In this document: piece after piece, positions 45,490 through 58,215 of the stretch
How the letters are laid out: each line of letters begins with the position of its first letter
Position numbering within the stretch: position 1 is the stretch's first letter
DNA from: Prevotella heparinolytica
GTDB lineage: Bacteria > Bacteroidota > Bacteroidia > Bacteroidales > Bacteroidaceae
Length of the DNA: 64,000 nt
Assembly (NCBI RefSeq): GCF_004342845.1
Contig: NZ_SLXB01000020.1
Span: forward strand, 1-64,000
Reading direction: 5' to 3'
Program-made: the position numbers and the translations under genes
The notes under the pieces: model-generated
Told to the model about the DNA's origin: nothing
Databases searched by the model: none
What the model saw: the letters and a program-made list of their open reading frames with translations, nothing else

Positions 45490-46530
45490 ATGCAGAAACG
45501 ACCTTTATTGGGGCTGACCCTAGCTGAATTACAAAACGTGGTGAAGAATCTGGGGATGCCTGGTTTTTCGGCCAAGCAGATAGCTTCTTGGCTGTACGAT
45601 AAGAAAGTGATTTCCATCGATGATATGAGCAATCTTTCGTTGAAGCATCGTGGGTTGTTGAAGGAGATTTATGAGGTTGGTGCCGAAGCTCCGATGGATG
45701 CCATGCGCTCGGTAGATGGTACGGTGAAATATCTCTATCGGACGGGGGAGGGGCATTTTGTGGAAGCGGTTTATATTCCTGAAGAAGATCGTGCCACACT
45801 TTGTGTCTCCTCTCAAGTGGGATGCAAGATGAACTGTAAGTTCTGCATGACAGGTAAGCAAGGATTCGCCGCCAATCTAACTTCCCATCAGATTATCAAT
45901 CAAATCAGTTCTTTGCCCGAAAGAGAGAAGCTGACTAATGTGGTGATGATGGGAATGGGCGAACCGCTTGATAATCTGGATGAGGTACTGAAAGCACTGG
46001 AGGTTATGACCGCCTCCTATGGGTATGGATGGAGTCCTAAACGTATCACCCTCTCTTCCGTGGGATTGCGGAAAGGATTGAAGCGCTTTATAGAAGAATC
46101 CGACTGTCATTTGGCCATCAGTCTGCATTCGCCCGTGCCTCTACAGCGCAGGGATCTGATGCCTGCCGAAAAGGCTTTCTCCATCACGGAGATTGTGGAG
46201 TTGCTAAGAAACTATGATTTCAGTAAGCAACGCAGGCTATCTTTCGAGTACATTGTCTTTAAAGGAGTGAACGACTCACTGACATATGCCAAGGAATTGC
46301 TGAAGTTGTTGCGTGGGGTAGATTGTAGGATTAATCTGATCCGTTTCCATGCCATACCGGATGTGGATCTCGAAGGAGCCGATATGGAAACGATGACTGC
46401 TTTCCGCGATTATCTGACGTCGCACGGATTGTTCACCACCATACGCTCTTCGCGCGGTGAAGATATTTTTGCGGCGTGTGGTATGCTTTCTACTGCCAAG
46501 CAAGAGGAGAATAAGGGCAAATTAATATAA
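45490..46530 (+). CDS. rlmN: Dual-specificity 23S rRNA/tRNA m2A methyltransferase
   Basis: RlmN is a radical SAM enzyme that methylates C2 of A2503 in 23S rRNA and A37 in some tRNAs. The 346-aa protein (start MQKRPLLGLTLAELQ; the upstream open frame adds 15 non-conserved residues) has the CxxxCxxC cluster as CKMNCKFC at about residues 112-119, the SAM-binding GMGEPLDN near 157, and the methyl-carrying Cys in FAACGMLS near the end. An N-terminal HhH-like RNA-binding domain precedes the barrel. The length is typical. It has its own promoter. Confidence 0.96.
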   Translation: MQKRPLLGLTLAELQNVVKNLGMPGFSAKQIASWLYDKKVISIDDMSNLSLKHRGLLKEIYEVGAEAPMDAMRSVDGTVKYLYRTGEGHFVEAVYIPEEDRATLCVSSQVGCKMNCKFCMTGKQGFAANLTSHQIINQISSLPEREKLTNVVMMGMGEPLDNLDEVLKALEVMTASYGYGWSPKRITLSSVGLRKGLKRFIEESDCHLAISLHSPVPLQRRDLMPAEKAFSITEIVELLRNYDFSKQRRLSFEYIVFKGVNDSLTYAKELLKLLRGVDCRINLIRFHAIPDVDLEGADMETMTAFRDYLTSHGLFTTIRSSRGEDIFAACGMLSTAKQEENKGKLI

Positions 46531-46599
46531 ATTATTAGCTTTGGTAGAAAGGATATTGTGCATTCTTCTTAGCTTTGTGAAAACTAAATTGACAGAGAT

Positions 46600-47655
46600 A
46601 TGAAAAAACACCTGTTTTATGTAAGTATGGCTCTTGTGTTGATGCTTTTTGCTGCATGCGGAAAGGACAAGAAGGGAGTGTTTACACCAACTTCCAGTGG
46701 TCGTGCGTATGAAGTTCTGGTGGTAGTCAACGCTGGATTGTGGGAACGTCCTGCCGGTAGAGCCTTGTTCGATGTGCTTGATTCGGATGTACCCGGATTG
46801 CCGCAGTCGGAACGTTCATTCCGTATCATGTATACCGATCCGGCTAATTATGATGCTACGTTGAAGATGATTCGCAACATCATCGTTGTAGATGTGAACA
46901 AAAGCCAGTACACTCAGCCCAAATTCAAGTCGGCAAAGAACGTCTATGCTGCTCCGCAATCTATCCTAACTATTCAGGCGCCTGATGAACCGTCGTTTGC
47001 CCAATTCGTGGAAGAGAACAGTCAGGTCATCATCGACTTCTTTACCCATGCGGAAATGAACCGGCAGATTTCGGTCTTGGAGGATAAACATAGTGACTAT
47101 ATCTCTACAAAGGTGAAAAGCATGTTCGATTGCGATGTGTGGGTTCCCGGCGAACTGACCTCTACCAAGCAGGGTGAGGGCTTCTTCTGGGCAGGAACGA
47201 ATGCAGCTACCGGTGACCAGAACTTCGTAATTTATTCTTATCCTTATACGGATAAAGAGACGTTTACCAAGGAGTATTTTGTGCACAAACGCGATTCTGT
47301 GATGAAAGCCAATATCCCGGGTGCCAGAGAAGGAATGTATATGATGACGGATTCCTTGATGACCGATGTGCGTCCCATCAGCGTGCAGGGTGAATATGCG
47401 CTGGAAGCTCGTGGCTTATGGCGTGTGAAAGGTGATTTCATGGGTGGCCCTTTTGTCTCTCATACACGCTTGGATAAAGCCAATCAGCGCATCATTGTGT
47501 CGGAGATCTTTATCTACTCACCTGATAAACTGAAACGGAATTTGGTTCGTCAGATGGAAGCTTCACTCTATACGCTGAAGTTGCCCGGTAGCAAGCAGGA
47601 AGGAATGGCTATTCAACTCAACACGGTTTCGAAAGATACAATAAACAATAAGTAA
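46600..47655 (+). CDS. DUF4837 lipoprotein
   Basis: The 351-aa protein has a lipobox in MALVLMLFAACGK (Cys near 20) and the conserved body of DUF4837: AYEVLVVVNAGLWERPAGRA, and RAYEV followed by IIVVDVNKSQY, then GFFWAGTN and RGLWRVKGDFMGGPF. The family is Bacteroidetes-specific, of unknown function, and predicted to lie in the periplasm, tethered by lipid. It leads a six-gene run with tiny gaps (DUF4837, pdxA, sigma-54 activator, lptE, TPR, secG). A TAGCTTTG box at 46570-46577 is its likely -7 element. Confidence 0.85.
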   Translation: MKKHLFYVSMALVLMLFAACGKDKKGVFTPTSSGRAYEVLVVVNAGLWERPAGRALFDVLDSDVPGLPQSERSFRIMYTDPANYDATLKMIRNIIVVDVNKSQYTQPKFKSAKNVYAAPQSILTIQAPDEPSFAQFVEENSQVIIDFFTHAEMNRQISVLEDKHSDYISTKVKSMFDCDVWVPGELTSTKQGEGFFWAGTNAATGDQNFVIYSYPYTDKETFTKEYFVHKRDSVMKANIPGAREGMYMMTDSLMTDVRPISVQGEYALEARGLWRVKGDFMGGPFVSHTRLDKANQRIIVSEIFIYSPDKLKRNLVRQMEASLYTLKLPGSKQEGMAIQLNTVSKDTINNK

Positions 47656-47659
47656 TAAA

Positions 47660-48757
47660 ATGGAAGATAACAAAATAAGAGTCGGCATTACGCAGGGCGA
47701 CATCAACGGAGTGGGGTATGAGGTTATTTTGAAGACTTTTGCAGAACCTGCCATGTTGGAGTTGTGTACTCCCATTATCTACGGTTCACCCAAGGTGGCA
47801 GCCTACCATCGTAAATCATTGGATTTGCCCACTAACTTCAGCATAGTCAACTCTGCATCCGAAGCCATTCATAATCGGTTGAGTGTAGTGAACTGTACCG
47901 ATGATGAGGTGAAGGTGGAGTTTTCCAAACCCGACCCCGAAGCCGGTAAGGCTGCGCTGGGAGCATTGGAAAAAGCCATCGAGGAATATGAAAAGGGCTT
48001 GATAGACGTGCTTGTCACTGCTCCTATCAATAAACATACCATTCAGTCGGAGGAATTCGCTTTTCCCGGACATACGGAATACATCGAACAAAAACTGGGA
48101 AATGGTGAAAAGGCGCTGATGATTTTGATGAAAGATGATTTCAGAATCGCATTGGTGACCGGACATCTGCCGGTGAAAGAGATTGCTGCGACTATCACGA
48201 AGGAGTTGATAGAGGAGAAACTGAGGATTTTCAATCACTCCTTGAAGCGTGATTTTGCCCTTGACGCACCTCGTATTGCTGTCCTGTCGCTTAATCCGCA
48301 TGCAGGAGATAATGGTTTGTTGGGAACTGAGGAGCAGGAAGTGATAATTCCCGCCATTCGTGAGATGGCTGCTCAGGGTGTGCTTTGTTATGGGCCTTAT
48401 CCGGCAGACGGATTCATGGGCTCGGATAATTATACTCATTTCGATGGCATTTTGGCAATGTATCACGATCAGGGATTGGCTCCATTCAAGGCATTAGCAA
48501 TGGACGAAGGGGTGAATTATACGGCGGGATTGCCGGTGGTGCGCACTTCGCCGGCTCATGGCACGGCGTATGATATTGCCGGAAAAGGGCTTGCCTCAGA
48601 AGATTCATTTCGACAGGCCATCTATGTGGCGATAGATGTATTTCGCAACCGTGTACGTGAGAGTGCGACGCGTGCCAATCCGTTGCGCAAGCAATATTAC
48701 GAGAAACGTGATGACAGTGACAAGCTGAAGCTTGATAGTGTAGAAGAGGATTTATAG
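47660..48757 (+). CDS. pdxA: 4-hydroxythreonine-4-phosphate dehydrogenase
   Basis: PdxA oxidises 4-phosphohydroxy-L-threonine in the DXP-dependent pathway to pyridoxal phosphate (vitamin B6). The 365-aa protein shows the family motifs: VGITQGDINGVGYEV at the start, a conserved APINKHTI near residue 116, PGHTEYIEQ near 135, LNPHAGDNGLLG near 213, and AMYHDQGLAPFK near 270, which contribute the metal-binding His and Asp residues. Length is at the upper end for the family, with a charged tail. The start lies 4 nt after the DUF4837 stop. Confidence 0.95.
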   Translation: MEDNKIRVGITQGDINGVGYEVILKTFAEPAMLELCTPIIYGSPKVAAYHRKSLDLPTNFSIVNSASEAIHNRLSVVNCTDDEVKVEFSKPDPEAGKAALGALEKAIEEYEKGLIDVLVTAPINKHTIQSEEFAFPGHTEYIEQKLGNGEKALMILMKDDFRIALVTGHLPVKEIAATITKELIEEKLRIFNHSLKRDFALDAPRIAVLSLNPHAGDNGLLGTEEQEVIIPAIREMAAQGVLCYGPYPADGFMGSDNYTHFDGILAMYHDQGLAPFKALAMDEGVNYTAGLPVVRTSPAHGTAYDIAGKGLASEDSFRQAIYVAIDVFRNRVRESATRANPLRKQYYEKRDDSDKLKLDSVEEDL

Positions 48758-48758
48758 A

Positions 48759-50009
48759 ATGACGAAAGCAGAGATACAACAAGTGAAATTACGTTTTGGT
48801 ATCATTGGCAATAACGAAGTGCTGATGCGTGCCATCGACATCGCCATCCAAGTGGCGCCTACCGACTTGTCTGTATTGATTACTGGAGAGAGTGGAGTGG
48901 GAAAGGAAAGTTTTCCGCAGATGATCCATCAATACAGCCGGCGTAAGCATGGGCAATACATTGCTGTGAACTGTGGTGCCATTCCGGAAGGAACGATTGA
49001 CTCCGAACTGTTCGGGCATGAGAAGGGTGCTTTTACCGGTGCCATTGGAGAGAGGAAGGGGTATTTCGGAGAGGCCAACGGCGGGACGATATTCCTTGAC
49101 GAAGTAGGAGAATTGCCTTTGCCTACCCAAGCTCGTTTGTTGCGTGTGCTCGAGAGTGGAGAGTTCATTAAGGTAGGATCCTCTAAAGTGGAGAAAACGG
49201 ATGTGCGGATAGTTGCCGCTACCAATGTGAACCTGGTACAAGCCATTGCCGAAGGGCGTTTTCGTGAAGATTTATATTATCGCTTGAATACAGTTCCTGT
49301 TCAAGTTCCACCGTTGCGCGAGCGTGGCGAAGATGTAGTACTGCTCTTCCGCAAGTTTGCTTCGGATTTTGCGGAGAAGTATCGTATGCCTGCCATTCAG
49401 TTGACGGAAGATGGTAAGCAGATGTTACTGACATATCCATGGCCAGGAAATGTGCGTCAGTTAAAGAATATTACCGAGCAAATCTCGATCATTGAAACCA
49501 ATCGTGAAATCAATGCAGCCATCTTGAAAGGCTATCTGCCCGAGCAAAACAATATACAACGTCTGCCTGCTTTGTTCGGAGTGAGAGAGAACAAGGGCTT
49601 TGGCAGTGAGAGGGAAATTCTTTATCAGGTGCTGTTTGATATGCGTCAGGATGTGACCGAATTGAAGAAGTTGGTGCATGATATCATGGCCGAACGTGGA
49701 ACGATGCCTAACTCCGTCGCTTCTGCTTCTGCTTACTATACGTCGGCTCCTTCGGCTGTGGTTCCTCCGGTAGCATCCGTTGTGTCTACTATCATACATC
49801 CCTCGGTGAAACCCATGACTTCGATAGATGACGACATTCTGGACACGGAAGAGTATGTGGAAGAGACGCTTTCGTTGGATGAAGTGGAGAAAGAAATGAT
49901 ACGCAAGGCGCTTGAAAGGCACCGTGGGAAGCGTAAAAGTGCAGCTCAGGACTTGAATATTTCCGAGCGGACCTTATACAGAAAGATAAAAGAGTATGGA
50001 TTGGATTAA
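48759..50009 (+). CDS. Sigma-54-dependent transcriptional activator
   Basis: This 416-aa protein is an AAA+ enhancer-binding protein that opens sigma-54 promoters. It starts directly with the ATPase domain: Walker A GESGVGKES near residue 47, the sigma-54-contacting GAFTGA loop near 90, Walker B GGTIFLDE near 110, sensor and arginine-finger residues (FREDLYYRLNTV), then a low-complexity Ser/Ala/Val linker and a C-terminal Fis-type helix-turn-helix (SAAQDLNISERTLYRKIKEY). It lacks an N-terminal receiver or GAF domain, so it has no obvious signal input and may be controlled by level or by a partner. The ATG is 1 nt after pdxA and its end overlaps lptE by 14 nt. Confidence 0.93.
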   Translation: MTKAEIQQVKLRFGIIGNNEVLMRAIDIAIQVAPTDLSVLITGESGVGKESFPQMIHQYSRRKHGQYIAVNCGAIPEGTIDSELFGHEKGAFTGAIGERKGYFGEANGGTIFLDEVGELPLPTQARLLRVLESGEFIKVGSSKVEKTDVRIVAATNVNLVQAIAEGRFREDLYYRLNTVPVQVPPLRERGEDVVLLFRKFASDFAEKYRMPAIQLTEDGKQMLLTYPWPGNVRQLKNITEQISIIETNREINAAILKGYLPEQNNIQRLPALFGVRENKGFGSEREILYQVLFDMRQDVTELKKLVHDIMAERGTMPNSVASASAYYTSAPSAVVPPVASVVSTIIHPSVKPMTSIDDDILDTEEYVEETLSLDEVEKEMIRKALERHRGKRKSAAQDLNISERTLYRKIKEYGLD

Positions 50010-50520
50010 GAAAATGGCGTCTGCCGCATTGTTGATAAGCTTGTTGTTACTGGTAAATTCCTGTCAGATGAAGTTTGGCCTTGCGCCCATTAGCTCCATC
50101 GATTATACAAGGGTGAAATCGATTTCCATTGCCGATTTTCAGAATCGGGCAGAATATGTATATGCACCTTTGGCTACGGAGTTTAACCAGAAAATGAAAG
50201 ACATGTTTATACAGCAGACTCGTTTGAAATTGGTCAACTCCGGCGGTGATCTTGATATAGACGGCGAAATAGTGGGTTATAACCAATACAATGAAGCTGT
50301 GGATGCCAGTGGCTACTCATCGAAGGTGAAAGTGACGCTGACGGTCAATGTGCGTTATGTCAATAATACAAATCATGAAGAAGACTTCGAGCAACAGTTT
50401 TCGGCTTTTCAGACATACGATTCTTCGCGATTACTCACAGAGGTGCAGGATCAGTTGATTGCTGTGATGGTGAAAGATATTACGGAACAAATCTTCAATG
50501 CGACTGTAGCTAATTGGTAG
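49996..50520 (+). CDS. lptE: LPS assembly lipoprotein LptE
   Basis: The 174-aa lipoprotein has a lipobox in SLLLLVNSC (Cys near residue 23) and the LptE family pattern YTRVKSISIADFQNRAEYVY...EFNQKMKDMFIQQTRLKLV. LptE plugs the LptD barrel and helps insert LPS at the cell surface. The gene overlaps the sigma-54 activator by 14 nt and is followed after 1 nt by a TPR gene. The N-terminal MDWIKK precedes a normal signal peptide. Confidence 0.9.
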   Translation: MDWIKKMASAALLISLLLLVNSCQMKFGLAPISSIDYTRVKSISIADFQNRAEYVYAPLATEFNQKMKDMFIQQTRLKLVNSGGDLDIDGEIVGYNQYNEAVDASGYSSKVKVTLTVNVRYVNNTNHEEDFEQQFSAFQTYDSSRLLTEVQDQLIAVMVKDITEQIFNATVANW

Positions 50521-50521
50521 A

Positions 50522-51349
50522 ATGATGACCTTTACTCATTTACAAAAATGGATTGAGCATCCTGATACATTAAACAAGGATACTTTGTACGAACTTCGCA
50601 CATTGGTAGCCCGTTATCCTTATTTCCAGTCACTCCGTTTGCTGTATCTGAAAAATCTTTATTTGCTACATGACATCAGCTTTGGGGCAGAATTACGCAA
50701 GTCTGTATTGTATGTGGCAGACCGGCGTGCATTGTTCTATCTCATAGAGGGTGAACGTTTTTCTTTGAAACCTGGCAAGATCTCTTCTGTCTTTTCCGAG
50801 GAGCTGGAGACAGAACCGAGCGTGGATCGTACTCTTTCTTTGATCGATGCTTTCCTGGCCACTATCCCCGAAGAGCACTCTCAGAGTTCTGAGTTGGATT
50901 ATGCCATGGACTATACTGCTTACCTGATTGAGGAGGACGAATCCTCTGAAGAACATTTGGAAAAAGAGATTGAAGTACCTCCTTTACGCGGGCATGAACT
51001 GATAGATGGCTTTATTCGTAAGAGTGAGTCGGAAACTATACCTCTGCTTGAGGTGCAATCCCTTTCTCAGGGCGATGAAGAGACAGCGGGTGATGTAGGA
51101 GTGGCTTCGGGTGAAAATGGGGATTTTTTTGATGAAGAGGAGAAGAGGAAAACGACTCCTGTAACAGACGAACTGGATGACAGCTGTTTTACAGAAACCT
51201 TGGCTAAAATCTATATCAAACAGCAGAGATATGACAAAGCACTCGAAATTATTAAAAAATTAAGTTTGAATTATCCAAAAAAAAATGCTTACTTTGCAGA
51301 CCAAATTAGATTTTTGGAAAAATTGATTATTAACGCTAAATCGAAATAA
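50522..51349 (+). CDS. TPR-containing cytosolic protein
   Basis: This 275-aa protein has no signal peptide. The C-terminal region has a tetratricopeptide motif (LAKIYIKQQRYDKALEIIKK) and the N-terminal half is helical with many aromatics; the middle is acidic and low in complexity (DEEEKRKTTPVTDELDDS). The ATG is doubled at 50522 and 50525. It sits between lptE and secG with 1- and 4-nt gaps, so it is co-translated; a protein-interaction role in export is plausible. I know this gene order from Bacteroides but no assigned function. Confidence 0.85.
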   Translation: MMTFTHLQKWIEHPDTLNKDTLYELRTLVARYPYFQSLRLLYLKNLYLLHDISFGAELRKSVLYVADRRALFYLIEGERFSLKPGKISSVFSEELETEPSVDRTLSLIDAFLATIPEEHSQSSELDYAMDYTAYLIEEDESSEEHLEKEIEVPPLRGHELIDGFIRKSESETIPLLEVQSLSQGDEETAGDVGVASGENGDFFDEEEKRKTTPVTDELDDSCFTETLAKIYIKQQRYDKALEIIKKLSLNYPKKNAYFADQIRFLEKLIINAKSK

Positions 51350-51353
51350 CAAA

Positions 51354-51713
51354 ATGTACTTATTATTAATTATCTTTATGCTGATAGCATCGGTTTTGAT
51401 GTGTTTCATTGTGTTGATTCAAAACTCTAAAGGAGGTGGTCTGGCATCAGGCTTCTCATCATCCAATCAGATTATGGGTGTGCGCAAAACTACCGACTTT
51501 TTGGAAAAGGCAACTTGGGCATTAGCATGCGCAATGGTAGTTTTCAGTATTGTATCTGCATACACAATACCTTCTTCTTCCGGTAAAGGTGGCGATGTTA
51601 TTATGGAACAGGCACAGCAAGAAGAGAAAACAAATCCTTATAATATGCCCGTGGGTACGGCAGCTCCGCAAGCGGAAACTCCTGCTGCTGAAACCGATTC
51701 TGCGGCTAACTGA
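51354..51713 (+). CDS. secG: Preprotein translocase subunit SecG
   Basis: This 119-aa protein has two membrane segments (about residues 1-22 and 52-72) separated by the conserved QNSKGGGLASGFSSSNQIMG loop of SecG. SecG aids the SecYE channel during SecA-driven export. The C-terminal tail is Ala/Pro/Glu-rich, common in Bacteroidetes. It closes the six-gene run and is followed by a hairpin with a T run. Confidence 0.93.
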   Translation: MYLLLIIFMLIASVLMCFIVLIQNSKGGGLASGFSSSNQIMGVRKTTDFLEKATWALACAMVVFSIVSAYTIPSSSGKGGDVIMEQAQQEEKTNPYNMPVGTAAPQAETPAAETDSAAN

Positions 51714-51741
51714 TAATAGGAATTTTACATTCTTTATATAA

Positions 51742-51775
51742 GAGGGTGTGTCTGAACGGTGCACTCTCTTTTTGC
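51742..51775 (+). terminator. Likely terminator after secG
   Basis: An imperfect stem (GAGGGTG with CACTCTC, about 10-nt loop) is followed directly by a T5 run. Confidence 0.55.
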
Positions 51776-51860
51776 GGGACGCGGATTGCACAGGACAGCA
51801 CGGATAGAGAAATAAGTTCGTGAATGCCGTGTAATTCGCGCCCTCTTTTATAAAGAGGGG
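51776..51860. repeat. CACGGAT-family inverted repeat plus second hairpin
   Basis: GGGACGCGGATTGCACAGGA on the left pairs imperfectly with ATGCCGTGTAATTCGCGCCC on the right (to 51843). A perfect 8-bp stem CCCTCTTT/AAAGAGGG at 51842-51860 follows. Confidence 0.6.
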
Positions 51861-51905
51861 TAATCCGGAGCTTTTAATTATTAACTTTATAGCAATACAA
51901 GAAAA

Positions 51906-53570
51906 ATGACTACTACGGACAAAATTCATCAGACATTGCGCGATTCTGCAGGAATGCGCTGGATGGTATTATTGTTTTTGGCTTTCGCCATGTTTTGTTC
52001 ATACATCTTTATGGACATCTTATCACCCATCAAGGACTTGATGCAATCTACTTGCGGATGGGATTCTACCGCATTCGGTACGATGCAAGGGTCTGAAACT
52101 TTCCTCAATGTATTTGTCTTTTTTCTTATTTTTGCCGGTATTATCCTCGATAAGATGGGGGTGCGTTTTACGGCATTGCTTTCGGGAGTGGTGATGCTGG
52201 TTGGCGCTACTATCAACTGGTATGCCGTGACTGAGGCTTTTCAGGGAAGCGGACTTGAAGCTTGGTTTAATAACAATCTGAATTATATTCCCGGTTTTGA
52301 TGAGTTGGGAATCTCGCCTTTCTATAAGGGTATGCCTGCATCGGCCAAGTTTGCCGCAGTGGGTTTCATGATTTTCGGCTGCGGTGTGGAAATGGCCGGA
52401 ATCACTGTTTCACGCGGTATTGTAAAATGGTTTAAAGGGCGCGAAATGGCGCTTGCCATGGGTTCGGAGATGGCGCTTGCCCGTTTGGGTGTGGCCACCT
52501 GTATGATATTCTCTCCTATGTTTGCCAAGTTGGGTGGGGTGATAGATGTATCGCGCTCAGTGGCATTCGGTGTTGTCTTGTTGTTCATTGCACTCATCAT
52601 GTTTATTGTCTATTTCTTTATGGACAAGAAGCTCGATGAGCAGACCGGTGAGGCGGAAGAAAAGGATGACCCGTTTAAAATCAGTGATCTTGGAAAAATT
52701 CTTTCCAGCGGAGGCTTCTGGGTGGTGGCTCTTTTGTGTGTGCTTTATTATTCTGCCATTTTCCCTTTCCAGAAATATGCGGTGAACATGTTGCAATGTA
52801 ATTTGGTATTCACGGAGGTTTCTCCTGAATCTTTTTGGGCTACCAATACTGTAACTATTATTCAGTATGGCATCATGCTGGTGGTGGCAGCGGCGGCTTT
52901 TGCAAGTAATTTCTCCAAGAAGGCCAACATGAAGTATGGCCTGCTGGTGGTGGCAGGTGTGGCATTGGTGTTGTTCTGCTACATGGGCTATATGCGTCAG
53001 AGTGCTGAAACGGTGTTTGCCGTATTTCCTTTGTTGGCTGTCGGCATCACACCGATATTGGGTAATTACGTAGACCATAAAGGTAAGGCTGCTTCCATGC
53101 TCGTGATAGGCTCTGTATTGCTGATTTTATGCCATCTGACCTTTGCGTTTGTACTACCGTTGTTCAAGGACAATGCAGTGGGCGGCATATTCATAGCTTA
53201 TCTCACGATTCTTGTACTTGGAGCCAGTTTCTCGCTGGTGCCGGCTTCCTTGTGGCCCAGTGTGCCCAAGCTGGTTGATGCTAAGATTATAGGGAGTGCG
53301 TATGCATTGATTTTCTGGATTCAGAATATTGGTTTGTGGCTTTTCCCATTGTTGATAGGTAAGGTGCTTGACAAAACCAATCCGCAGTTGGTGGAGGATT
53401 TGAAGAATGGACTGATTACGCCTGAAGAAGCAGCTGTGTCGTATGATTATACAGTTCCGCTGGTGATGTTGGCATGTTTGGGTGTTGCCGCTTTGGTGCT
53501 GGGTTTTGTTCTGAAAGTGGTAGATAGAAAGAAGGGCCTTGGATTGGAAGAGCCTAATATTAAAGAATAA
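51906..53570 (+). CDS. MFS transporter
   Basis: The 554-aa inner-membrane protein has about twelve membrane segments and the look of a major facilitator: RMVLLFLAFAMFCSYIFMD-like MRWMVLLFLAFAMFCSY at the start, a GIILDKMGVRFTALLSG stretch (motif-A-like between TM2 and TM3), and a second half beginning at FWVVALLCVLYYSAIF. Both halves and a long cytoplasmic loop with GEAEEKDDPFKISDL are visible. Substrate is unknown. It overlaps or abuts a PqqD-like gene at its 3' end. It has no recognised neighbour pathway. Confidence 0.9.
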   Translation: MTTTDKIHQTLRDSAGMRWMVLLFLAFAMFCSYIFMDILSPIKDLMQSTCGWDSTAFGTMQGSETFLNVFVFFLIFAGIILDKMGVRFTALLSGVVMLVGATINWYAVTEAFQGSGLEAWFNNNLNYIPGFDELGISPFYKGMPASAKFAAVGFMIFGCGVEMAGITVSRGIVKWFKGREMALAMGSEMALARLGVATCMIFSPMFAKLGGVIDVSRSVAFGVVLLFIALIMFIVYFFMDKKLDEQTGEAEEKDDPFKISDLGKILSSGGFWVVALLCVLYYSAIFPFQKYAVNMLQCNLVFTEVSPESFWATNTVTIIQYGIMLVVAAAAFASNFSKKANMKYGLLVVAGVALVLFCYMGYMRQSAETVFAVFPLLAVGITPILGNYVDHKGKAASMLVIGSVLLILCHLTFAFVLPLFKDNAVGGIFIAYLTILVLGASFSLVPASLWPSVPKLVDAKIIGSAYALIFWIQNIGLWLFPLLIGKVLDKTNPQLVEDLKNGLITPEEAAVSYDYTVPLVMLACLGVAALVLGFVLKVVDRKKGLGLEEPNIKE

Positions 53571-53574
53571 ACCT

Positions 53575-53937
53575 GTGGCAGATGAATATAGAGCGTCTCA
53601 AGGAAAGATTAGTCTGTTAGATGCTGTTCCGGTGCGCTGCGAACATATAATGACCGAGTGGGAAGGTGAGTGTGCTGTGCTCACCTATCCTCGGTTTAAA
53701 TACAGATGGGTGTGTCGATTCTTGTTGTCGAAAGGTATGTCGCCCAATATTCGTGTGACACTCGAAGAGCATGGTACAGCCGTTTGGCAACTGATAGATG
53801 GAAAGCACTCTGTAAGTGAAATTGTTTCCCTGCTTGCCGGACATTTTAAAGATGAAAGCAACTATGCTACGCGTGTCACTGCCTATGTGATGCAGTTGCG
53901 TAAGGACGGTTTTATCCGATTAACAGTCAAGTCCTGA
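53575..53937 (+). CDS. PqqD-like protein
   Basis: Starting at the GTG 53575 the product has 121 aa and does not overlap the MFS gene; an ATG at 53539 would add 12 residues but overlap it by 32 nt. The sequence matches the PqqD winged-helix fold: RVTLEEHGTAVWQLIDGKHS near the centre and YVMQLRKDGFIRL at the end. PqqD binds precursor peptides for radical SAM enzymes; no such enzyme or precursor is seen here, so it may have a different role, perhaps with the adjacent transporter. The N-terminal part is longer than classical PqqD. Confidence 0.75.
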   Translation: MADEYRASQGKISLLDAVPVRCEHIMTEWEGECAVLTYPRFKYRWVCRFLLSKGMSPNIRVTLEEHGTAVWQLIDGKHSVSEIVSLLAGHFKDESNYATRVTAYVMQLRKDGFIRLTVKS

Positions 53938-53938
53938 A

Positions 53939-54988
53939 TTACTCCCTATCTACTTTTATTAGTCCCCCTGTTGCTGTGTCGAACAGCACTTTGATCGTTG
54001 AATTTTTATTGAACAATACGGGTGCAAGATACTCTACTGTGCCGAATTGGGTAACAGGAAGTGATTCGTCAAGCAGTTTTTTATTGTTGTATACAAGGGT
54101 TAGCTGTGCTTTTCCCGGGAGGTTGTAGGCTATGCCATCTACCTTCTTTTTGCTTTCTTCGGTTGCAGAGATATCCGGTGTTTTGAGGTCGGCAATCGTG
54201 AGGTAATACGGTTCACCGGCTAAATCGGTGTCGGCTACTACGCCCAACTTCTTGGAAAAGCGGAAAGCAACTACGTTTTGCATTTCTTCGGGCGTTAGGC
54301 GGATAACAAACGTTTTGGACTCCTTTTCCACTTTACCTGAGAACATCTCTGTCATGGCACGTTCTTGCTGATTCAGGTTATCAAGCATGAGTTTGAGTTG
54401 GGCACCGTCCTTTGGCATGTTGTCTGCTTCGCCACGCAACAGGGCATTTTTGCTCTCGCGTATGCTGTAAATCTCTTTGGCTACCAATTCGGCCATTTTG
54501 GCTGTGGAATTTGACATCAGAATTTCTTCCGTCAGGAAACTACGTGGGTCAATGCTGCTTTCGGAGGTCGTCGCTTCAGGTGTCTTGGTATTTTGTCGGC
54601 CGCTGAAAGGAATGTTGATGGAGCGGACAATACCGTCTTCTGTGAGCTCCATGAGAGGAGCCACGGTTTTGTCTTTCATCTTGACGAAATACACGTTGTC
54701 CTTGTCCGGTAGGCCGATTACACGGCTTTCCACTTTGTCCAATGTCCAATATGTTTCCGATTCGGCAGATACGTTGTTGAGACGGAGGTAGCGGTCGGCA
54801 TATTTGCAAAACTCTCCAGGAGTATAGCTGTGTTTGGTGGTTTGTAATACAATTTCTATTTCCGTTTTGGGCAACAGATAGGTCACTCCGTAATCTTTTC
54901 CACGCATTACACCGGTTGTAACTTCTGTTTGAGCCATGGAAGTAGTGGTCAGTAGCAGGGCAGATAATATCAATATATTTTTCTTCAT
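53939..54988 (-). CDS. DUF4831 secreted protein
   Basis: The start at 54988 (MKKNILILSALLLTTTSMAQ) gives a clean signal peptide and 349 aa; the open frame extends upstream across the promoter. The body matches DUF4831, a Bacteroidetes family of unknown function: VTYLLPKTEIEIVLQTTKHS, PGEFCKYADRYL, and IDPRSFLTEEILMSNSTAKM. It is exported and probably periplasmic or attached to the outer membrane. It converges with the PqqD gene with one nucleotide between stops. A -7 box TAACTTTG lies at 55026-55033 on the minus strand. Confidence 0.85.
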   Translation of the reverse strand: MKKNILILSALLLTTTSMAQTEVTTGVMRGKDYGVTYLLPKTEIEIVLQTTKHSYTPGEFCKYADRYLRLNNVSAESETYWTLDKVESRVIGLPDKDNVYFVKMKDKTVAPLMELTEDGIVRSINIPFSGRQNTKTPEATTSESSIDPRSFLTEEILMSNSTAKMAELVAKEIYSIRESKNALLRGEADNMPKDGAQLKLMLDNLNQQERAMTEMFSGKVEKESKTFVIRLTPEEMQNVVAFRFSKKLGVVADTDLAGEPYYLTIADLKTPDISATEESKKKVDGIAYNLPGKAQLTLVYNNKKLLDESLPVTQFGTVEYLAPVLFNKNSTIKVLFDTATGGLIKVDRE

Positions 54989-55025
54989 AAATGCATACGT
55001 TCGTTTGGATAAACCTTGTTTGAGA

Positions 55026-55033
55026 ACAAAGTT
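55026..55033 (-). promoter_or_regulatory. -7 box of the DUF4831 gene
   Basis: TAACTTTG on the minus strand, 37 nt upstream of the chosen start; it lies within the upstream open frame and so supports the downstream ATG. Confidence 0.5.
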
Positions 55034-55061
55034 AATCAAGATATCGTTGTCCGGATGTGGT

Positions 55062-56183
55062 TTAGGGATTATTAACTGAATTGGTGAATTGTATGCATAC
55101 GGGTTTGTCCAATATGATATCCCGGTGGATGTCGCTCAGCAACCCGGTGTGCTCGTCACGTTGAAACACTTGAATGATATTGCTGTCACGGCAGGCAACG
55201 AGCAGAAACTTTCCATTAGGAGTGATGTTAAAGTTACGTGGGTGGATGCCTGTTTGCTGATACCCGACTTTGGCTAAGTTCCCATTTTGGGGATTAACGG
55301 AGAATATGGCAATGCCGTCTCCCTTCAGGCGATTGCTGGCATAGAGATATTTGCCGTCCGGACTGAGGTGTATGTCTGCGCTTCCGCGGGCGGCCAATGT
55401 ATCGGCGGTGATGGTTTGTATCTGATTAAGACGGCCATCGTCGTAGCTGAAGGCTATGACTTTGCCTGACAACTCGGTGATGAGATAAGCATATTTACCG
55501 TTGGGGCTGAAAATCAGATGACGTGGCCCGGAGTCGGCTTCAATGTCAGTTGTCTCCATTGAGGGATGAGGAGTGGCCGCATTGGGGTGCAGAACAAAAC
55601 GCAGGATGCGATCGGAGCTGAAGTCGGTGGCAAAGATATATTTTCCATCCGGCGAGAAGACAGCACAATGGATGTGTGGGGTGTTTTGGCGTATGGTGTC
55701 GGGACCTGTGGCAGTACCTTCAAAGAGAGTGTCTATAGGAGTTGCTGTTCCATTTTTACGTAAGGAGAATACGGACATGTTTCCACCACTATAGTTGGCT
55801 GTCACTACCTTGCTTCCATTTGTAGCCACATAACAGGGATCACCTCCCAGCGTGAGTTCCGTGTTCAGCAGGCACATGCTTCCCGTTTCTTTATCGAAAG
55901 AGAGGGTGTTGAGGGAGGCTGTGCTATCGTTCATTTCGCTTACGGCATAGACCAGCTTCCCATCTTCGGATGGAGTGAGGTAGGAGGGGTTGGCTAACTC
56001 TATGGAGTCGAGAGGAGTGGCCATACCCGTTTCTTGGTTGAAGCGAAAGGTATAAATACCTTTGCTTGTTCCATTGGTATAAGTTCCTACCAGCATGGCG
56101 AGTTCGTCTTGATTATTGCTTGCCTTCTTTGGCGTACAAGCAGAGATGCTTAATCCGAGCATACAAAAAAGAAATGTTTTCAT
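55062..56183 (-). CDS. Lactonase-family beta-propeller lipoprotein
   Basis: The start at 56183 gives 373 aa with a lipoprotein signal (MKTFLFCMLGLSISAC, Cys 16); the open frame goes on 25 codons upstream. The protein is a seven-bladed beta-propeller of the Pfam Lactonase family: MLVGTYTNGTSKGIYTFRF at the start, HIHCAVFSPDGKYIFATDF, GPRHLIFSPNGKYAYLITEL, SADIHLSPDGKYLYASNR and HPRNFNITPNGKFLLVACRD mark successive blades. Relatives hydrolyse 6-phosphogluconolactone; a lipidated periplasmic member more likely acts on another lactone or binds a ligand. Confidence 0.88.
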   Translation of the reverse strand: MKTFLFCMLGLSISACTPKKASNNQDELAMLVGTYTNGTSKGIYTFRFNQETGMATPLDSIELANPSYLTPSEDGKLVYAVSEMNDSTASLNTLSFDKETGSMCLLNTELTLGGDPCYVATNGSKVVTANYSGGNMSVFSLRKNGTATPIDTLFEGTATGPDTIRQNTPHIHCAVFSPDGKYIFATDFSSDRILRFVLHPNAATPHPSMETTDIEADSGPRHLIFSPNGKYAYLITELSGKVIAFSYDDGRLNQIQTITADTLAARGSADIHLSPDGKYLYASNRLKGDGIAIFSVNPQNGNLAKVGYQQTGIHPRNFNITPNGKFLLVACRDSNIIQVFQRDEHTGLLSDIHRDIILDKPVCIQFTNSVNNP

Positions 56184-56335
56184 GCAGAAGCTGTTAAAAA
56201 ATGAGGAAAATATCCCATCGGTCTGTGTAATGACCGATAAGCACGCAATATTAGGCATTTAAAGTGACAAATGCAAATGCGCGGTATTTCAACTTACGAT
56301 ACTCTCTTCTTTTCTTATGCTTCGCTTCAGTCTCT

Positions 56336-56419
56336 GTTCGCAGTGCGCGGATATATGTTCGCACGTTGCGGATATCTGTCCGCGCCGTGCGGATACAAAA
56401 ACGCACGGCGCGAACAGAG
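56336..56419. repeat. Period-21 array with long hairpin
   Basis: Units of 21 nt start at 56336, 56357 and 56378 with a GTTCGC...GCGGATA core; a fourth at 56399 is in inverted orientation. A perfect 11-bp stem CGCGCCGTGCG/CGCACGGCGCG (56381-56391 with 56402-56412) and an outer 10-bp stem (56332-56341 with 56410-56419) can form. Confidence 0.85.
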
Positions 56420-56521
56420 ATTTATCCGAACTTCGAACAAGTTTACTGTTTACAGCAAACGATTTTATTCTATGGATTCAAGAAGCTTTCTATATGTATA
56501 CATTGTACTGCCATATATTGC

Positions 56522-57169
56522 TTAATGCCACAGCATATTTCCTGTTACCGGTTTGAACTCAGCCTCATCGCTTCGGCGAAGCTTTATGCTTCCATCGTTC
56601 CAGTTGGAAAGCCATCCGCCAATAATATGTCCCAGAAATACGGTTTTTAGTTTATGAAGGCCTTTGGCTAAAGCAATAGAGGTGTCTTTACGAGAATGGC
56701 GTTTAACTTCACCACTATTGTTTATTAGTAGCTTATCGTCTAACCAGACTTCTTCTAAGTCGGACGAAAGGAAATAGACCCCATCGGCGGGAATTTCCAG
56801 GAAACCGGTGCCCACGGCAGCATATTGCTTGACACTGCGCATCGACTCGTCATACTTCTCTTGGGAAGTCAATTCGTTGAGTTGCTTTATTTCTTTTATG
56901 ACATCGGGAGTTTTAGCGGAAGCATTCAGTTCATTTATATTGAGATAGTAGCCGTAAGTCATTTCGACAGTCAGTCCTTGTTTTAGATTTTCGGCTCTGA
57001 TGGCAGGCATCGGTGTCTGTTTCTCAATGAGGATAGTGCGCACTCTACTCAACTTGCCCGAAGACAGTAAAGTGGCGATTTTCAGTGTTCCGTTTGTACT
57101 GAAGCTGATGGGGCTTTCATAACGGGCTGATCGGGCTGTTGGTTCGGTACCATCTGTGGTATAAACCAT
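56522..57169 (-). pseudogene. C-terminal remnant of a GH20 beta-hexosaminidase
   Basis: The minus-strand frame encodes about 215 residues that match the tail of Bacteroidetes GH20 enzymes: a chitobiase C-terminal domain (VYTTDGTEPTARSARYESPI) and a PA14-like carbohydrate-binding stretch (GFLEIPADGVYFLSSDLEEV, then GLHKLKTVFLGH). The catalytic barrel, normally about 400-500 residues, is absent. At 57165-57172 the frame runs into antisense of a response-regulator gene, so the N-terminal part was lost by deletion; the open frame to 57328 is artefactual. The intact enzyme would have removed terminal GlcNAc or GalNAc. Confidence 0.85.
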
Positions 57170-57685
57170 GTCGGTAGATGACCATCCGGACATGACAGAC
57201 TTCTTGAAGAAATCACTGAAAGAGTTTTTCAAACAGGTCATTACGGCTGCTGATGGTGTAGAGGCCCTGCAATTAATGAAGACACATGTGCCCGACGTCA
57301 TTGTGAGCGATGTGATGATGCCACGCATGAACGGCTATCAACTTTGTATGGAGATCAAGAAGAATGTTGATGTCAGTCACATTCCGGTCATATTGCTTAC
57401 TGCCCGCCACGATGAGCAAAGCCAGAAAGACGGCTATAAAAAGAGATGGGAATGAGTCGCGCTTCTCTCTACAATAAACTGAAAGTGCTGACAGATATGA
57501 GCGCCAATGAGTATATTAATAAATTCCAGATGGAAAGGGCTATACTGTTAATCCACTCTACTGACATGATATTTTCCGACATTGCCGAGAAAGTGGGCTT
57601 CACCACCTCTTCTTATTTCAGTACTGCTTTCAAACAATATACGGGAGAGACGCCGACACAATATAAGAAAAAGATAAGGCAGTGA
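57168..57685 (+). pseudogene. Remnant of a hybrid two-component (HTCS) regulator
   Basis: Two pieces of a hybrid two-component system regulator remain. The first (57168-57440) is a receiver domain with VDDHPDM, phosphoacceptor Asp in VIVSDVMMPRMNGYQL and LLTARHDEQS. The second (57446-57685) is an AraC-type helix-turn-helix (GMSRASLYNKLKVLTDMSAN, then IFSDIAEKVGFTTSSYFSTA). The sensor, kinase and linker are gone, and between GYK and the AraC domain about 80-100 residues are deleted, which also shifts the frame. The start abuts the GH20 remnant. It cannot act as a full regulator. It may have once controlled the GH20 gene. Confidence 0.88.
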
Positions 57686-57710
57686 AAGAGATTTGCATCA
57701 TATATGATAC

Positions 57711-57774: not shown

Positions 57775-57821
57775 GAAAGCCAATCTTAAAGTTGTCCTTT
57801 AACACACCTTCATTTCATTTG

Positions 57822-58215
57822 TGGAGCTGGAGGGAATCGAACCCTCGTCCAAACGAGGAAATCATAAGCTTTCTACATGCTTATCTTTGCCTGGGTTTTC
57901 GTGCTGCGACAGAATCAAAGCCATCAATCGCAGCCTTATCCTCTAAATTTTCATTCGCGCCACGAGGCTGGCACGAACTATCCCCGATGTGACTGCACCA
58001 CTGAACCGGAATGCTTCGGAGCAACAGCTTCCGAGTGATGTCTCGTCCCGGCACCTTGTGCCGGGATTAAGCTAATCTACTATGATTCGATTAAGCAGCA
58101 AGAGCGTAATTAGTTTCGCCAGATAAAATTTTGAAGACTGAGATTTAAGTGCAAATCAACGACGCACTGCATGCTTACTTACCATTTCTGCCCGCTGTCA
58201 AATCCAGTCAACCCC
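57822..58215 (-). ncRNA. ssrA: Transfer-messenger RNA (tmRNA)
   Basis: On the minus strand the RNA starts GGGGUUGACUGGAUUUGAC and ends GGUUCGAUUCCCUCCAGCUCCA; the 5' GGGGUUG pairs with the 3' CAGCUCC to form the acceptor stem and the T-arm is complete. CCA is not encoded, so it is added. The tag frame at 58091-58120 reads GETNYALAA followed by TAA, the tag expected for Bacteroides. tmRNA with SmpB rescues stalled ribosomes and marks the unfinished protein for proteolysis. The protein-like frame at 57792-57992 is a shadow. A TATCTTTGC box at 58281-58289 upstream suggests a 5' leader that is trimmed off. Confidence 0.97.

Follow-up and report, generated by a model that had tools for sequence, protein, structure and literature searches.

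The closest described relatives of the locus considered here are the HTCS-regulated susCD PULs of Bacteroides, which are recognised by a paired susC and susD, the GH20 beta-N-acetylhexosaminidases, which are defined by the catalytic domain PF00728, and the HTCS regulators, which unite a sensor propeller, HisKA, HATPase_c, a full receiver and an AraC domain in a single frame. The window, by which we mean the whole 64,000-nucleotide stretch of Prevotella heparinolytica DNA that was analysed (the genome is called G000 below), contains none of these in functional form: its GH20 remnant is without PF00728, its HTCS parts do not make up the full set of domains that the parent gene has in the sister species (G056, a single contig), and no susC and susD lie between the remnants, where G056 has both. 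What it does contain is a set of fragments collinear with an intact relative and interrupted by two defined missing segments, as expected of a deletion scar or pseudogene pair (Table 1). We are all but certain that the feature is a decayed PUL, in which two deletions left fragments of a locus that is still intact in G056. The anatomy of the remnants, their breakpoints, the intact sister locus and the lack of the missing DNA in the G000 assembly are all directly observed.

Table 1. Gene remnants, deletion joins and flanking genes in the window.
Feature	Position	Strand	Detail	Evidence
Lactonase-type 7-bladed propeller gene	55062..56258	-	intact left flank, common to G056	PF10282 6e-103
GH20 beta-hexosaminidase 3' remnant	56522..57172	-	last 216 of 785 codons	PF13290, PF13287, PF07691
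Deletion join 1	57172..57173		10,149 bp of sister locus missing	breakpoint alignment
Truncated receiver-domain ORF	57168..57455	+	profile positions 3-89 of 111	PF00072 6.2e-21
Deletion join 2	57439..57442		235 bp missing between receiver and AraC domain	alignment to G056
AraC-type DNA-binding tail of HTCS	57446..57685	+		PF12833 2.4e-19
ssrA (tmRNA)	57821..58215	-	right flank	ARAGORN tag GETNYALAA; RF00023 143 bits

The remnants are bracketed by the lactonase-type gene and ssrA. The former is 88% identical in DNA between the window and G056, with its order conserved, and positions 46333-56280 as a whole are syntenic with the G056 left flank at 88-89% identity. Just beyond this, at 56332-56498, lies one instance of an intergenic repeat that is dispersed and partly palindromic, with 33 matches in G000 (both strands, overlapping), a few weaker ones in G056 and none in 30 other relatives searched. 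Pfam matches and the G056 alignment both bear out the original prediction of a minus-strand GH20 tail and a plus-strand receiver/AraC tail, each without its 5' part. The GH20 remnant matches CHB_HEX_C (beta-hexosaminidase C-terminal), Fn3_assoc and PA14; Pfam found no Glyco_hydro_20 catalytic domain (PF00728) in 56522-57172, and the G056 parent has one. The assignment to GH20 is right, since these 216 residues recur at 95% identity as the C-terminus of the intact GH20 of G056. The frame ends ...NMLWH-stop and has neither a start of its own nor a signal in register. On the plus strand (57173-57685), the broken receiver and the AraC tail lie in different frames; the ATG of the receiver ORF comes from GH20 antisense sequence and its TGA stop was made by the second deletion, while the AraC tail, with an HTH_18 match spanning profile positions 5-79 of 80, has 92% DNA identity to G056. 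All three remnants are still open (216, 88 and 79 codons), with no internal stops.

In G056 the lactonase gene is followed on the minus strand by genes for GH20 (785 aa), SusD (569 aa) and SusC, and then by a divergent HTCS gene (1322 aa) on the plus strand. Pfam confirmed the GH20, the SusD-like protein and a TonB plug/carboxypeptidase-regulatory-domain protein of SusC type, and the HTCS carries Reg_prop, Y_Y_Y, HisKA, HATPase_c, Response_reg and HTH_18. A protein search with the GH20 tail matched 45 of 99 genus genomes; the best match outside G000 was in G056 (95% over all 216 residues, in a 789-codon open frame), with G099 (68%) and G097 (61%) next. When 56522-57700 was searched as DNA against 158 genus genomes, with scoring confined to the top two first-look candidates of each genome, which may miss weaker second places, 32 had matches at E <= 1e-20, and G056 was the sole genome besides G000 with pieces above 90% (94, 92 and 92%), the best other reaching 80%. 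These three pieces align at 92-94% to three separate places in G056; 56522-57172 matches L071:9986-10636 at 94.2% over 651 bp and another piece matches at 92.2% over 270 bp, far beyond chance. Among the 158 genomes searched, only G056 carries the intact locus at this site.

Alignment to this locus fixes both breakpoints. The two tails had been placed as meeting at 57165-57172, and they do join here, the exact join being 57172|57173: the first of these bases corresponds to C1:2835635 of G056, within GH20, and the second to 2845785, which falls in the receiver region of HTCS; the gap is resolved to the base. The missing segment runs from the 5' part of GH20 through susD, susC and the intergenic region to HTCS residue 1073 or thereabouts. 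It thus includes the first 569 residues of GH20 with the catalytic domain (G056 residues 167-510), the entire susD and susC, the region between susC and HTCS, and the sensor, kinase and receiver start of the regulator, and the proposal that one deletion took both 5' ends and a control region, with loss of a glycan locus, is upheld by the intact GH20-SusD-SusC and HTCS of G056. A second deletion between receiver and AraC domain had likewise been predicted correctly; in G056 coordinates it measures exactly 235 bp, between L076:4052-4055 and 4288, and lies in an A-run at about 57440 of the window. Since 235 bp does not divide into whole codons, the loss throws the sequence out of frame and brings in a TGA at 57453. 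The lost segment includes the receiver's NGADAYLMKPFE, present in G056 and absent in the window, which carries the conserved lysine of receiver domains.

The mechanism was probably short- or no-homology recombination. Repeat-mediated deletion was considered and rejected for both, there being no in-register homology or microhomology beyond scattered 2-bp matches at join 1 and, at join 2, no more than an A-run of 2-3 bp. The breakpoints bear no visible trace of a mobile element, and no link was found to an element targeting ssrA, both window breakpoints being inside genes and away from ssrA, and the ssrA-targeted element of G056 sitting on the other side of HTCS. This element is a ~62.7 kb insert at the ssrA 3' end (C1 about 2846677-2909390, L076:4678 onward), with a 428-aa integrase-like gene, named by eye, and an additional tmRNA, complete and divergent (71% identical, tag GENNYALAA, RF00023 137.9 bits) ~5.7 kb from one end; the ssrA site of the window is empty of it. 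An exact junction scan of viral contigs found no other carriers of the join, and a literature search of titles and abstract openings found no published work on this locus.

We reconstruct the history of the locus as follows. The ancestor shared with G056 had HTCS divergent from a susC-susD-GH20 operon, between the lactonase gene and ssrA. In the window lineage, one deletion removed ~10.1 kb and fused the 3' part of GH20 to the HTCS receiver region, and another took out the C-terminal part of the receiver together with the linker and the beginning of the AraC domain, shifting the frame. This polarity draws mainly on the single genome G056 and on the logic that a truncated gene pair cannot precede intact genes. 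Neither product can work as its parent did: the GH20 fragment is without a catalytic domain, and the HTCS fragment is frameshifted, has a truncated receiver and lacks both sensor and kinase.

Other members of the genus place the locus in a wider context. G099 keeps SusC, SusD and GH20 in this order, with protein identities of 80, 70 and 71%; a sulfatase comes next, and a BNR-repeat (sialidase-like) protein lies farther along. Given this context it is plausible that the target was a host glycan, and the lost locus would have served N-acetylhexosamine-containing host glycans. The closest HTCS homologue in G099 (64%) is on a different contig, not beside the SusC of the PUL, and adjoins what is presumably a GH89-like gene. 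The position of the PUL is special to G000 and G056 among the genomes read, since the surroundings of ssrA were read in ten further genus members and neither its GH20 nor its SusD is beside ssrA in any of them; one of these, G014, has a distant HTCS near ssrA (25-32% identity). The orientation of ssrA relative to the lactonase gene is reversed in G022, G014, G021 and G017 (L115, L116, L118, L120), so an inversion or relocation of ssrA probably took place in the lineage of G000 and G056.

The head-to-head arrangement of the remnants today had suggested an ancestral pair of adjacent, divergent GH20 and HTCS genes that lost a shared control region. The original prediction had looked to relatives for such a pair, and an intact locus on which the breakpoints could be mapped does exist in G056, but there the whole susC-susD pair stands between the two genes and the divergent neighbour of HTCS is susC. 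G056 being the sole intact relative found, we give an adjacent pair hardly any credence; as HTCS diverges from susC, and GH20 is last of the susC-susD-GH20 group, the control region that was lost is that between susC and HTCS. It is also very unlikely that the ends were misjoined in assembly and that the 10-kb segment is present in the real genome. The assembly is a draft in 69 contigs, but it is estimated to be 99.99% complete and the segment is nowhere else in it: a search of G000 with 9,701 bp of it gave nothing beyond short paralogous hits, the best covering 247 query bases at 66%, and no near-identical copy of susC or susD. Nor is there a shared repeat at the join to mislead assembly, the longest direct word within 40 bp being 7 bp, out of register and in the range of random pairs, and the same gene bears the second, independent 235-bp loss. 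Decay of the PUL does not deprive G000 of beta-hexosaminidase capacity as such, since six other GH20-domain matches remain in this genome.

Retention of the remnants as small proteins with a function, namely a PA14-type domain and a stand-alone AraC regulator, would agree with their open frames and with their low dN/dS against G056 (GH20 tail 0.127, receiver 0.119, AraC 0.091), but this signature is mostly older than the deletion. The receiver is without its C-terminal part, the AraC part without frame and N-terminus, and the GH20 tail without an in-register start or signal. When changes are polarised with G099, 15 synonymous and 13 nonsynonymous ones fall on the G000 branch, against 22 and 8 on the G056 branch. 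The difference is not significant: P is 0.17, or 0.19 if one omitted codon is counted, at which a change in two steps from one Arg codon to another was miscounted. Ambiguous sites, with 17 synonymous and 3 nonsynonymous differences, do not enter these counts. If G097 serves as the outgroup, no excess is seen in the GH20 part (synonymous to nonsynonymous, 11:4 in G000 and 9:4 in G056). The G000 branch counts thus lean, suggestively only, towards relaxed constraint after recent loss, and we consider retained function extremely improbable. Equally improbable is that the AraC remnant, which is open with an ATG, is expressed as a free DNA-binding fragment disturbing other HTCS regulons, which would give the scar a residual regulatory role. 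Returning to decay, the loss is probably recent, because the remnants keep open frames and show no significant relaxation. Dating is complicated by a possible exchange between lineages: pS of the GH20 tail (56525-57172) against G056 is 0.170, about half that of eight flanking genes (0.31-0.38), and among 435 sliding stretches of 216 codons taken from these genes none is as low. Exchange of this tract between the G000 and G056 lineages after their split is the likeliest reading of these values.

The PUL scar is an ordinary and clearly traceable gene loss, and not a new system. It is a cleanly resolved case of a Bacteroides-type species shedding a glycan niche, in which a single deletion took transporter, enzyme and sensor at once and left two tails that annotation could mistake for small genes. 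Compared with an HTCS-regulated susCD PUL of Bacteroides, G056 has the divergent HTCS, SusC, SusD and GH20, while the window keeps just the 3' third of GH20, part of a receiver and an AraC tail. Like a GH20 beta-N-acetylhexosaminidase with CHB_HEX_C and PA14, the window has the C-terminal domains, but it is without PF00728. Of an HTCS regulator (Reg_prop, Y_Y_Y, HisKA, HATPase_c, receiver, AraC) it retains a partial receiver and the HTH_18 tail, whereas sensor and kinase are gone, the receiver is truncated and the frame is broken.
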